NCBI GenBank assembly: GCA_012970285.1
Contig: JIBW01000003.1
Coordinates: 248,001-312,000, forward strand
Origin: Bacillaceae bacterium JMAK1
GTDB taxonomy: Bacteria > Bacillota > Bacilli > Bacillales > Marinococcaceae
Reading direction: 5' to 3'
Length of the DNA: 64,000 nt
Notes under the pieces: generated by a model
Told to the model about the DNA's origin: nothing
The model's input: only the letters and a program-made list of their open reading frames with translations
Database searches by the model: none
Made by a program: the position numbers and the translations under genes
In this document: positions 10,936 through 38,922 of the stretch, piece after piece
Layout: every line of letters begins with the position of its first letter
Position numbering within the stretch: position 1 is the first letter of the stretch

Positions 10936-10978
10936 GTGAGTTTTGCTCCTTTTTTGTACGAAGTCTATGAGTCCATGA

Positions 10979-11145
10979 AAAAAGACCCTCGCCGTAACCG
11001 GCGAAGGTCAGTAATTGGTCATTTCATAGACCTCGCCCATAGTGGCAAAGGTCTTGCGACAGTCAGGTACGACTGCACTAAAGCCGGGGCTATTATATGC
11101 CCGTCATGACGACTTTAATGAGGAGCTACTCCCCTTTGATACTGT
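10979..11145 (-). ncRNA. yybP-ykoY manganese riboswitch
   Basis: Read on the minus strand, the leader begins with the AAAGGGGAGTAGCT element typical of the yybP-ykoY class, goes through TCGTCATGACGGGC and GCCCCGGC stems, has TGACCTTCGCC, and ends in a CCTTCGCCGG / CCGGCGAGGG hairpin followed by TTTTTT (10979-11008). The 3' aptamer strand and the terminator overlap, as in Mn2+-on riboswitches: metal binding would release the terminator and allow the TerC gene to be read. Confidence 0.88.
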
Positions 11146-11146
11146 A

Positions 11147-11175
11147 ATCGTAATGGACGGTTAAGGAAAAGTCAA
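11147..11175 (-). promoter_or_regulatory. Promoter of the riboswitch-terC unit
   Basis: On the minus strand TTGACT (11175-11170), a 17-nt spacer and TACGAT (11152-11147) place the transcript start close to the riboswitch 5' end. The rest of the gap up to the hydantoinase gene at 11271 holds only the outward leader of that gene. Confidence 0.65.
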
Positions 11176-23939: not shown

Positions 23940-25577
23940 TTACATCTTCTTTGGAGCCTCAATAACGAGAAGGTATAAGCATTCTTTGATCGCTACGTTA
24001 ATCGCGTCAACGATGCTTAATCGGTTTTGTAGATTGTCGTCGTCTTTTAGAATGTGCGATTGACTGTAGTAACGGTTAAAGGCTTGGGCGAGTAACAAGA
24101 CGTATCTGGCAACAAGCGAAGGGTCATGGGAATCGAGTGCTCGTGCAATTGTTTCCTCGAATTTAGAGAGGATAATGAGGCATTCCCAAGCTCCATCTTC
24201 AACAGCTTGACCGTCTTGCCACATGAATGTCTGTTCACGTATTAACGAATACGTACGAACGTGAGTATATTGTACGTAAGGGCCTGTTTCGCCTTCAAAA
24301 CGAAGCGTATCTTCTAATGAAAAATCAATGTCGTTTCTACGGTCATTTTTCAAGTCATTAAAAATAATCGCACCTACACCGACTTGACGGGCGACTTCTT
24401 TACGGTTCGGGAGGCTAGGGTTCTTTTCTTGCATATACTCCTCAGCGAGAGCAGTTGCTTCGGATAACACGTTCTCAAGATAAACAACACTGCCTTTACG
24501 TGTGCTCATCTTTTTCCCTTCTAGACGCATCATGCCAAAGCTGATATGCTCCATGTGCTCAGACCAATCATAGCCAAGTTTACGTAAGACCGCTTTGAGT
24601 TGTTTGAAATGAAGCGCTTGTTCATTACCGACGACATAGAGTGAACGTGTGAAATCATACGTTTGTTTACGGTACATCGCTGCAGCAAGATCTCGTGTGG
24701 CATAAAGTGTTGCTCCGTCTGATTTTCTGATCAGACATGGTGACAGATTCTCATGATCAAGTGAGACGACTTGAGCGCCATCGGACTGTTCAAGCAGGTT
24801 GTGGCTTTCAAGTTCTTCAATAACGGCGTGCATTTTATCGTTATAAAACGATTCACCGTCATACGAATCGAAGGTAACACCAAGCTTTGAATAGATGTCT
24901 TGAAAGGATGAGAGAGAGACAGTTTTGAACCATTTCCAGAGGTTGAGTGCTTCAGCGTTTCCTTGCTCGAGTTCGTAAAACCATCGTCTGCCTTTAGCTT
25001 CGTCCCCTTCTTTATGGAATCGTACATATAGCTTTAACAATTCTTGGATTGGAGCCGTTTCAACCTCTTCTTTTACTCCCCACTGTTTGTACGCGGCAAT
25101 TAACTTTCCGAATTGAGTGCCCCAATCACCTATATGATTAATACGAACAACAGTGTACCCATGCTGTTCGTACAAACGAGCGATTGATTCACCGATCACA
25201 GTTGATCGCAGGTGTCCCATCGAGAATGGTTTGGCAATGTTCGGTGACGACATATCAATCGTAACGGTGCCTTGATTTGTGACCTTCTCGTTCGTCTTAG
25301 AAAATAGTAAATCAGCAAACGTTGTACGGTTGAAATGCAAGTTAGCGTAGCCTCCTACGACATCAACATGGTCGATACTAGTAACCGCAGTAAGTATCGT
25401 TTGGACACGTAATGCAATGTCATGGGGCGATATTTTCAGTTCTTTTGCTAATGTAAAACAAGGGATTGAAAGATCGCCATGGATCGGTTGTTTAGGGTAT
25501 TCAAACAATTGAGACGGAATAGGAACGGATAGTTCTGACGATAAGACGTTCGCAATTTCTTCTTTAAGCAAATTCAT
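23940..25577 (-). CDS. argS: Arginine--tRNA ligase
   Basis: Class I aminoacyl-tRNA synthetase of about 545 residues. The N-terminal Add-1 domain covers about 1-100; the HIGH-type motif is in SPNIAKPFSMGHLRST near 108-123; the KMSK loop is GKKMSTRKGS near 350; the C-terminal DALR anticodon-binding domain is about 430-545. The HIGH motif's first His is replaced (SMGH instead of HIGH), a variant known among ArgRS. It charges tRNA-Arg. ATG 25577 is supported by AAGGAG 7 nt upstream. Expression is governed by the T-box leader next to it. Confidence 0.93.
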   Translation of the reverse strand: MNLLKEEIANVLSSELSVPIPSQLFEYPKQPIHGDLSIPCFTLAKELKISPHDIALRVQTILTAVTSIDHVDVVGGYANLHFNRTTFADLLFSKTNEKVTNQGTVTIDMSSPNIAKPFSMGHLRSTVIGESIARLYEQHGYTVVRINHIGDWGTQFGKLIAAYKQWGVKEEVETAPIQELLKLYVRFHKEGDEAKGRRWFYELEQGNAEALNLWKWFKTVSLSSFQDIYSKLGVTFDSYDGESFYNDKMHAVIEELESHNLLEQSDGAQVVSLDHENLSPCLIRKSDGATLYATRDLAAAMYRKQTYDFTRSLYVVGNEQALHFKQLKAVLRKLGYDWSEHMEHISFGMMRLEGKKMSTRKGSVVYLENVLSEATALAEEYMQEKNPSLPNRKEVARQVGVGAIIFNDLKNDRRNDIDFSLEDTLRFEGETGPYVQYTHVRTYSLIREQTFMWQDGQAVEDGAWECLIILSKFEETIARALDSHDPSLVARYVLLLAQAFNRYYSQSHILKDDDNLQNRLSIVDAINVAIKECLYLLVIEAPKKM

Positions 25578-25601
25578 AGACACGCTCCTTTTTACGACGA
25601 A

Positions 25602-25815
25602 AAGACCCCCACCTCAAAAAAGAGGCGGGGGTCCCGCGGTACCACTCTCGTTAACGTTATAAACGTTCACTTTCGCATAACGGTACGATTGCCGGCTGTT
25701 CGTACTCAGTGTTCAGAACAACATCTTAGAAGTCCGCTTCACGATTCTGTTCCTACCGGCTTGCACCAAACCCGGCTCGCTATGAGTGAACACCATCGCT
25801 ACTCTCTTCATCGTC
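25602..25815 (-). ncRNA. T-box leader of argS
   Basis: Read on the minus strand: stem I starts at GACGATGAAGAGAGTAG; the AG-bulge/platform region is GCGAGCCGGGTTTGGTGCAAGCCGG (25 nt at about 25755-25780); the antiterminator has the invariant AGTGGTACCGCGG (near 25635-25648); a GACCCCCGCCTC/GAGGTGGGGGTC terminator with TTTT follows (25602-25634). The presumed specifier, 5' of ACTTC in GTGAAGCGGACTTC, reads CGG, an Arg codon, in agreement with the downstream gene. Uncharged tRNA-Arg would favour the antiterminator. Confidence 0.9.
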
Positions 25816-25833
25816 GATTGTATATTGAGATTT

Positions 25834-31218: not shown

Positions 31219-31542
31219 ATGACAGAAGTTCAACGAACACCGGACCGAGATGCGGAAGAAAATATGGGTTTAGGAATTGTTGCATATATTTTGTTCTTTA
31301 TTCCGTTACTTGCTGGTAAAGATTCTCCATTTGCGAGGTATCATGCGAATCAAGGATTGTTGCTGTTAATCTTAGGGATAATTGTGGCGATACTCGGATC
31401 GATCCCGATCATAGGGACATTTATTATTGGCCCAATCGGATCACTGTTTGTCCTTGCTTTATTCATCTTAGGCATTGTAAACGCTGTGCAGAAGAAAAGA
31501 AAGCCTCTTCCAGTCATTGGAGGAATACAAATCATTAAGTAA
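31219..31542 (+). CDS. DUF4870-like membrane protein
   Basis: Protein of 107 residues with three hydrophobic segments (about 20-36, 45-65, 70-90) and the motif FARYHANQGLLLLI near 36-49, typical of DUF4870 (YtzE/TM2-like small membrane proteins). GAAAGGAGATG precedes ATG. Role unknown. The 172-bp gap before it is AT-rich and shows no promoter I would trust. Confidence 0.82.
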   Translation: MTEVQRTPDRDAEENMGLGIVAYILFFIPLLAGKDSPFARYHANQGLLLLILGIIVAILGSIPIIGTFIIGPIGSLFVLALFILGIVNAVQKKRKPLPVIGGIQIIK

Positions 31543-31547
31543 ATGGG

Positions 31548-31590
31548 AACGGTTGTTTTGAGGTAGTCACCTTAAGGCAACCGTTTTTTT
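31548..31590 (+). terminator. Terminator after the DUF4870-like gene
   Basis: An AACGGTTG / CAACCGTT stem, with extra GAGGTA/CACCTTA-type pairing inside, followed by seven T. Confidence 0.78.
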
Positions 31591-31599
31591 GTGGTTGAA

Positions 31600-31803
31600 G
31601 AAAGAAGGGTGCGCAATGAATAGAGGCGTGCAATGTTCTCTTGGCCATACATCAAAAAAGTAGAATATTTGTAGGCATTGGTTTCGTTAGTTAGCATGGA
31701 TGTCATACTGATGGATGGCTGCTTATATGTTCTAGAAGCGTTCATTGCGAAGTGTTCGCATGCGATGGAGTAGTTGCGGGGAGATAGAAGGCACCCTTCT
31801 TTC
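31600..31803. repeat. 204-bp nested inverted-repeat element, no gene
   Basis: Bounded by a perfect 13-bp inverted repeat GAAAGAAGGGTGC (31600-31612) / GCACCCTTCTTTC (31791-31803). Directly inside are CGCAATGAA (31612-31620) / TTCATTGCG (31741-31749) and then GCCATACATC (31644-31653) / GATGGATGGC (31710-31719, one mismatch). All three stems are nested and can form at once, leaving a 3'-side arm (31750-31790) with CGCATGCG. No reading frame with a ribosome site, no terminator T-run on either strand. It is either a structured RNA or a non-autonomous mobile repeat. The remaining 31804-32021 is AT-rich with only weak promoter-like boxes. Confidence 0.6.
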
Positions 31804-32021
31804 AACTAATGCTAACATTATTCTGATAAATTGCAATACTTTTATCATAGTTTTTCATAATTTGAACGATAATATTTCTATTGGAAGAAGAATGACGTAA
31901 GTCTTAAGTCTGTTTTCTACTGATGATTCATTTTTCTTATAGGTAGCCATTCAATATCCATAGTAGTGCTTCTCGTTCTAGTACCATAAACTATGTGTAT
32001 AAAGGTAAAGAGGTGGTTATC

Positions 32022-32798
32022 TTGTACAACCAAAAAAACGCGGTGCAACAAACTTTCTCATCATCATCTCATAACTACGTTACAAGTGAACTACACGCGA
32101 AAGGAAAAGATTTAGCATCACTCGTTACTGAAATCTCAACGCTCAAACCGAAATCATTGCTTGATATTGCAGTGGGTGCTGGTCATGTTAGCAATGCGGT
32201 TGCTCCTTACGTAGAAGACGTAACTGCAATGGACTTAACCGATGAAATGCTTTCAACAGCAGAAGCCTTTGTCACGAGTAACGGGCATCGAAACGTTAAG
32301 TTTGAGCGAGGAGATGCGGAATCGTTGTCCTATGAAAGCGATACTTTTGATGTGTCGGTTTGTAGAATTGCTGCGCATCATTTTGAACATCCGATTCAGT
32401 TTTTGGAAAGTGTTCAGCGAGTAACGAAATCAGGTGGACTATTTTATTTGTTAGACAATACCGCACCAGAAGTTGATGAGTATGATCAATTTTACAATGA
32501 AATCGAAAAAATGCGTGATCCGAGTCATTATCGAGCCTGGAAAAAAAGCGAATGGATCGCTATGATTGAACGAGCGGGCCTCGTCGTCGAGCATTTAGAA
32601 CGATATCCGAAAGTTTTTCAATTTGACGATTGGTGTGAGCGTTTGAATCTTTCAAATGAACGCCGTCATGAACTTACGGAACGATTGAAGAGTACAAATG
32701 GTGAGCAGAAGCAGAAATTTACCATTGAAATTGACCAGAACGGAGATGTTCAATCATTTTCAGGGGAGTCTGTCTTAATTCGAGCAAGGAAGTTGTAA
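32022..32798 (+). CDS. Class I SAM-dependent methyltransferase
   Basis: Methyltransferase of about 258 residues of the UbiE/COQ5-like type (Methyltransf_11). Motif I is LLDIAVGAGHVSNAV near 47-61, the acidic end of strand 2 is AMDLTDEML, motif II ERGDAESLSYESDTFDVSV and CRIAAHHFEHP near 113-123, and post-III LLDNTAPEVDEYDQF. TTG 32022 is preferred since AAAGAGGTGG is 7 nt upstream; the in-frame GTG 31995 has none. Substrate unknown; no pathway genes adjoin. A terminator follows. Confidence 0.85.
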   Translation: MYNQKNAVQQTFSSSSHNYVTSELHAKGKDLASLVTEISTLKPKSLLDIAVGAGHVSNAVAPYVEDVTAMDLTDEMLSTAEAFVTSNGHRNVKFERGDAESLSYESDTFDVSVCRIAAHHFEHPIQFLESVQRVTKSGGLFYLLDNTAPEVDEYDQFYNEIEKMRDPSHYRAWKKSEWIAMIERAGLVVEHLERYPKVFQFDDWCERLNLSNERRHELTERLKSTNGEQKQKFTIEIDQNGDVQSFSGESVLIRARKL

Positions 32799-34164: not shown

Positions 34165-34392
34165 ATGAACGGGAAAGCAATTGCTTCAGTGATATTAGGT
34201 CTCGTCTCATTTTTTGTTTCATGGATTGGATTTTTAACTGGCGTGGTAGGACTCGTATTAGGAATAATGGCAGTGCGGGAACCAAACGGTGGCGGATTAG
34301 CGATCACAGGAATTGTGATTAGTGGGTTATCTGTTTTCTTAAACATTTTACTCATCATTTTTGGTGTCGCATTCCTCGGGTTCTTACTCTAG
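34165..34392 (+). CDS. DUF4190-type small membrane protein
   Basis: Protein of 75 residues with two long hydrophobic helices: about 5-35 (ASVILGLVSFFVSWIGFLTG) and about 45-75, separated by the polar turn AVREPNGGGLAITG that marks DUF4190 proteins. The N-terminal NGKAIASVILG motif also fits. Function is unknown. AGGAGG lies 6 nt before ATG; a strong terminator follows. Confidence 0.8.
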   Translation: MNGKAIASVILGLVSFFVSWIGFLTGVVGLVLGIMAVREPNGGGLAITGIVISGLSVFLNILLIIFGVAFLGFLL

Positions 34393-34393
34393 T

Positions 34394-34435
34394 AAACAGA
34401 GCGATCGATGTTACAATCGATCGCTCTGTTTTTTC
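34394..34435. terminator. Bidirectional terminator
   Basis: An AAACAGAGCGATCGAT stem of 15-16 bp with a 6-nt loop and TTTTTT tail; it ends right at the stop of the minus-strand chemoreceptor gene, so it may serve both. Confidence 0.85.
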
Positions 34436-38786: not shown

Positions 38787-38793
38787 AGTAGGG

Positions 38794-38831
38794 AAAAGAA
38801 TGCTGTGATGATGTTCACAGCATTCTTTTTT
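38794..38831 (+). terminator. Terminator after the aminotransferase
   Basis: An AAAGAATGCTGTGA / TCACAGCATTCTTT stem of 14 bp with a 6-nt loop, followed by TTTT. Confidence 0.85.
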
Positions 38832-38922
38832 GTGTATTCACGAACGTAATACAAATAATGATAGATTTTTTATCAAAGAAAATTTAGAATATTAAGTATA
38901 AACTACGTAAGGAGTGATTGCG

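Follow-up and report, generated by a model that had tools for sequence, protein, structure and literature searches.

The question considered here is whether a short, gene-free stretch bounded by inverted repeats encodes a structured RNA, represents a mobile element or is simply part of an ordinary intergenic spacer. It is posed by a 204 bp gene-free element (positions 31600-31803 of the window, that is, of the whole 64 kb stretch of DNA that was analysed) in a 4.12 Mb genome of the haloalkaliphilic Bacillota genus Geomicrobium. A preliminary description of the single sequence had reported three nested inverted repeats, and had proposed either a structured RNA or a MITE-like element. The comparison set consisted of G. 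sediminis DSM 25540, Geomicrobium sp. JCM 19038 and a fourth congener (G003); a search of the literature on Geomicrobium found a genome announcement and, among the titles listed, no work on RNA. The element lies inside a 452 bp intergenic gap, with the following neighbours.

31219-31542, plus strand: upstream gene for a 107-aa membrane-like protein, with one homologue in each of four genomes of the genus
31545-31588, plus strand: strong intrinsic terminator of this upstream gene, from the terminator scan, outside the element
31995-32798, plus strand: downstream gene for a SAM-dependent methyltransferase (Methyltransf_11), to the right of the element

The plus strand terminator ends 11 bases from the left arm of the element, and the earlier statement that there is no terminator is consequently wrong for the neighbourhood; on the minus strand, the terminator scan found none. 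Nor is the element AT-rich relative to its surroundings, as had been supposed, since its GC content of 44% compares with 42% for the window and 28% for the right flank. The parts of the element and its right border are listed below, 'relatives' being G. sediminis and JCM 19038.

31600-31612, minus strand: outer (closing) arm, 3' side, GAAAGAAGGGTGC; 12 of 13 bases invariant in the three species
31613-31620: left middle arm, 8 independent bp; stem interrupted in each relative
31644-31653, minus strand: inner arm, 9 of 10 positions paired; outermost pair G-C, A-U and G-U across the three species
31693-31709, minus strand: apical hairpin AGUAUG-ACAUC-CAUGCU, invariant; its U-G wobble is C.A on the plus strand
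31710-31719, minus strand: inner arm, partner of 31644-31653
31721-31739, minus strand: small hairpin GCUU...AAGC; closing pair G-C here, G-U in the relatives
31741-31748: right middle arm; the central A of its TTCATTGC is T in both relatives
31774-31790, minus strand: 5' loop with a C-rich motif, UCUCCCCG here and UUCCCCCG in the relatives; unpaired in the predicted fold of the element studied
31786-31800, minus strand: local 5' hairpin AGAAGG-GUG-CCUUCU, invariant; cannot form together with the closing stem
31791-31803, minus strand: outer (closing) arm, 5' side, GCACCCTTCTTTC; invariant in the three species
31809-31836, minus strand: promoter-like site, TTGCAA (31831-31836), 16 nt, TG-T-TAGCAT (31809-31814); 8 of 12 matches, hexamers invariant

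The perfect 13 bp outer arms (31600-31612 and 31791-31803) are present as described and exceed chance, a repeat of this length arising in 0/1000 dinucleotide shuffles of the element and in 1/1000 of the whole intergenic region. The nested 9 bp perfect arms are likewise found, at 31612-31620 and 31741-31749, but the middle stem has only 8 independent bp (31613-31620 with 31741-31748) because base 31612 also belongs to the outer arm. The third stem, reported as 10 bp arms with one mismatch, does pair at 9 of 10 positions (31644-31653 with 31710-31719). When only the interior is shuffled and the outer arms are kept in place, an 8 bp stem nested with a 9-of-10 stem occurs in 0.4% of shuffles, whereas singly these stems are common (14% and 21%, respectively). 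Across the three species the outer stem is kept over 12 bp and the inner stem is kept, while neither relative has an intact middle stem. Of the three nested inverted repeats the outer arms are real, but the other two are weaker. Three nested stems in a single sequence can mimic RNA, and here two relatives were enough to reveal that the middle one is not kept.

The sequence conservation proposed as a test of the preliminary description is present, in the form of 87% identical orthologous copies in two Geomicrobium genomes: both G. sediminis (87% identical) and JCM 19038 carry the element as a single copy at the same syntenic site. BLAST did not find it in the fourth congener or in 25 genomes from other genera of the family, and a covariance model recovered no full-length homologue in the family or in approximately 300 genomes of the order, such that the search of related genomes that had been recommended was positive in two congeners but not beyond them. 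Nearly all matches to this model in the family and order span about 44-66 bp, are confined to the closing stem and for the most part read as common intrinsic terminators; the few longer matches are weak, the best scoring 19.5 bits.

The identity of the element to its relatives (87.3-87.7%) is similar to that of the right flank (88-90%), compared with 67-68% at four-fold degenerate sites. However, non-coding DNA as a whole, over the 58 kb that were aligned, has a mean identity of 88%, approximately equal to that of the element (87.5%). On these alignments the element is constrained relative to synonymous sites, but no more so than other local intergenic gaps, and intergenic conservation by itself does not set it apart at this locus. 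The pattern is a general one, as between positions 1400 and 59700 of the window intergenic DNA is 88% identical to the two relatives, versus 67% at four-fold sites, in nearly all gaps.

Folding distinguishes the two strands. The minus strand of the whole element folds better than shuffled sequences in all three species (z = -4.2, -2.2 and -2.7), but the interior alone folds no better than its own shuffles (minus strand z = -1.5, -0.4 and +0.5); the excess derives from the closing stem. When the minus strand fold of the element is imposed on the relatives, four pairs are lost in each, versus about eight expected with random substitutions (P 0.017-0.035), whereas in its plus strand fold the losses equal or exceed expectation (P 0.58-0.91). 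Thirty-two minus strand pairs all remain standard pairs in the three species, the changes among them comprising one G-C/G-U/A-U series, at the outermost pair of the inner stem, together with a G-C to G-U replacement at each of two sites, the outermost closing pair and the small hairpin at 31721-31739; on the plus strand, these changed pairs have A.C intermediates. In an alignment of three sequences, two of them mutually close, with one compensatory pair, the pair counts are not significant, being reached by 352 of 500 column shuffles; there is no statistically supported case of the compensatory changes that had been sought in relatives. Folding of the alignment, scored against column shuffles, gave z = -3.6 for the minus strand versus -1.8 for the plus strand, the strand of a known T-box scoring -3.1 in the same test, and several other intergenic stretches of the window exceed the element in alignment fold score. 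Several weak signs thus concur in making the minus strand the better RNA candidate. The original suggestion of a structured RNA survives in reduced form, on this strand only, with the outer stem conserved but the middle stem not.

The claim that the element has no promoter holds at the scan threshold on this genome, but the right end carries, on the minus strand, an extended -10 site with 8 of 12 matches. The invariant TTGCAA-16-TGTTAGCAT at 31836-31809 predicts a start at about 31802, within approximately 1 nt of the arm. Such a motif is not rare, its extended -10 part having 39 matches in 64 kb versus 43 by chance; naively, the probability that it falls no more than 2 nt from one or other arm end, on the strand that fits, is about 0.3%, for a coincidence that was noticed post hoc.

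Taken together, the reading tentatively preferred, with something close to an even chance of being correct, is that the element is a structured sRNA on the minus strand, restricted to part of Geomicrobium (three related species so far). Transcription would start at about 31802, from the weak right-flank promoter with its extended -10 motif, and run leftwards for approximately 200 nt, to a putative 3' end at which the two ends of the RNA would pair as a 12-13 bp closing stem, shielding both of them. Inside this stem would lie the inner stem with its apical hairpin (31644-31719), as well as a largely unpaired 5' loop containing the C-rich stretch. If transcribed, the element would add another young sRNA of restricted distribution to this haloalkaliphilic genus of Bacillota; it is neither a mobile element nor clearly a new kind of RNA.

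The covariance models of Rfam 15 give no match at gathering score, and at E values of up to 10 only two chance matches are seen near the element, neither to a plausible family. It resembles 6S RNA (RF00013) in its length of about 200 nt, its ends closed by a stem and its large one-sided internal loop, but lacks a central bubble conserved in the three species. As a candidate, 6S RNA was rejected: the element has no RF00013 match even at an E value of 10, and the clear 6S RNA of this genome is at another locus (107 bits). The element is also about twice the length of the C-rich sRNAs RoxS and FsrA. It shares with these the features of a small intergenic candidate with an unpaired C-rich stretch and possible Shine-Dalgarno pairing (PMC10433868), but differs in having no Rfam match and in that its C-rich stretch varies between species. 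The C-rich loops of RoxS and FsrA, which are Gram-positive sRNAs, pair with Shine-Dalgarno sequences (PMC10433868), and by analogy the C-rich 5' loop of the element may pair with those of putative target mRNAs. More speculatively, the invariant hairpin AGAAGG-GUG-CCUUCU, a competitor of the closing stem, might serve as a switch. A previously undescribed, self-gating sRNA, in which the 5' end would alternate between this hairpin and the long-range closing stem and expose the C-rich loop in one state only, is nevertheless a long shot.

The main rival to a minus strand sRNA is nearly as likely, and has a substantial chance of being right. It holds that the element is an ordinary constrained intergenic spacer between the upstream terminator and the promoter region of the methyltransferase gene, containing one real A-stem-T palindrome, either terminator-like or a protein-binding inverted repeat, with the inner stems due to chance. 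This would account for a level of conservation equal to the mean of local intergenic DNA, an interior no better folded than shuffles, a middle stem that is not conserved and covariation that is not significant. The type of closing arm is moreover a common one, because the model matches elsewhere hit mainly the closing stem and are mostly A-stem-T terminators. The arms share the composition of an intrinsic terminator, with an A-rich stem, GC core and T-rich tail, and terminators elsewhere match them, but the loop of the element is 178 bases, versus 3-10 in a terminator, and one of about 180 nt is not normal for this type of signal. Against a plain spacer, furthermore, stand the avoidance by substitutions of breaks in minus strand pairs (P about 0.02-0.04) and the coincidence of the edge of the palindrome with the predicted start site.

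It is very improbable that the element forms the 5' leader of the methyltransferase gene, acting on the plus strand as a cis-regulator. It does lie upstream of this gene on the same strand, in an intergenic region conserved over its entire 452 bp, but a strong terminator is found directly upstream, and the scan finds no promoter between terminator and element. Pairs of the plus strand fold survive no more often than expected by chance, and about 190 nt of AT-rich DNA with no special folding (assessed over 31753-31994) separate the element from the gene.

A MITE-like, non-autonomous mobile element bounded by the 13 bp inverted repeats is very improbable. Like such small transposons, the element has terminal inverted repeats enclosing about 200 bp of gene-free DNA, and its absence from the fourth congener fits as well. 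However, the genome-wide search for the extra copies that a mobile element might have left found a single copy in the 4.12 Mb host genome, as in each relative, always at the same fixed site. No flanking direct repeat of at least 4 bp was found, and the lack of both target-site duplication and second copy disfavours the MITE-like reading first put forward. Nor is there any sign of recent insertion, because the flanking DNA is equally well conserved. Collections of phage and viral sequences contained no relative, and plasmids only a 30-base chance match. Weak BLAST matches elsewhere in the genome were dismissed as chance, the one overlapping an arm being located in a coding-like stretch. No empty site can be read in the fourth congener, because the two flanking genes are not adjacent there. 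The methyltransferase homologue of that genome (G003, L013 1333-2287) apparently consists of two overlapping frames, through a frameshift or a sequencing error, and has a different gene neighbourhood.

A protein gene, whether decayed or very short, is also very improbable. Each strand does contain a short open frame (51 aa on the plus, 77 aa on the minus), but single-base indels between species shift the frames, and substitutions by codon position number 10/6/9 and 13/4/8, with no third-position excess, whereas the neighbouring gene has 5/0/21; searches of Pfam gave no significant match. The element is non-coding because its substitutions have no codon periodicity, in agreement with the original view that it has no plausible reading frame. 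Two protein-like frames spotted by hand, GEVEGTLLSLNANIIQI on the plus strand and IIVEIVKKYDKSIAIYLKNVSIK on the minus strand, were rejected for the same want of third-position excess.

Other intergenic stretches of the window also have features of interest. The region 10936-11160 is 96% conserved and strongly folded on the minus strand (alignment z = -8.5), matches the yybP-ykoY manganese riboswitch below threshold (31.1 bits, against a cut-off of 45) and lies directly upstream of a minus strand gene for a 259-aa membrane protein that by eye resembles the TerC family; it is probably a divergent Mn2+ riboswitch. On the same strand, a T-box leader (RF00230, 116 bits) is present at 25618-25823, upstream of the minus strand gene at 23940-25583. 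Finally, the intergenic stretches 38787-38913 and 34321-34435 exhibit strong conserved folding on both strands (z of about -5 to -6), and are probably bidirectional terminators.
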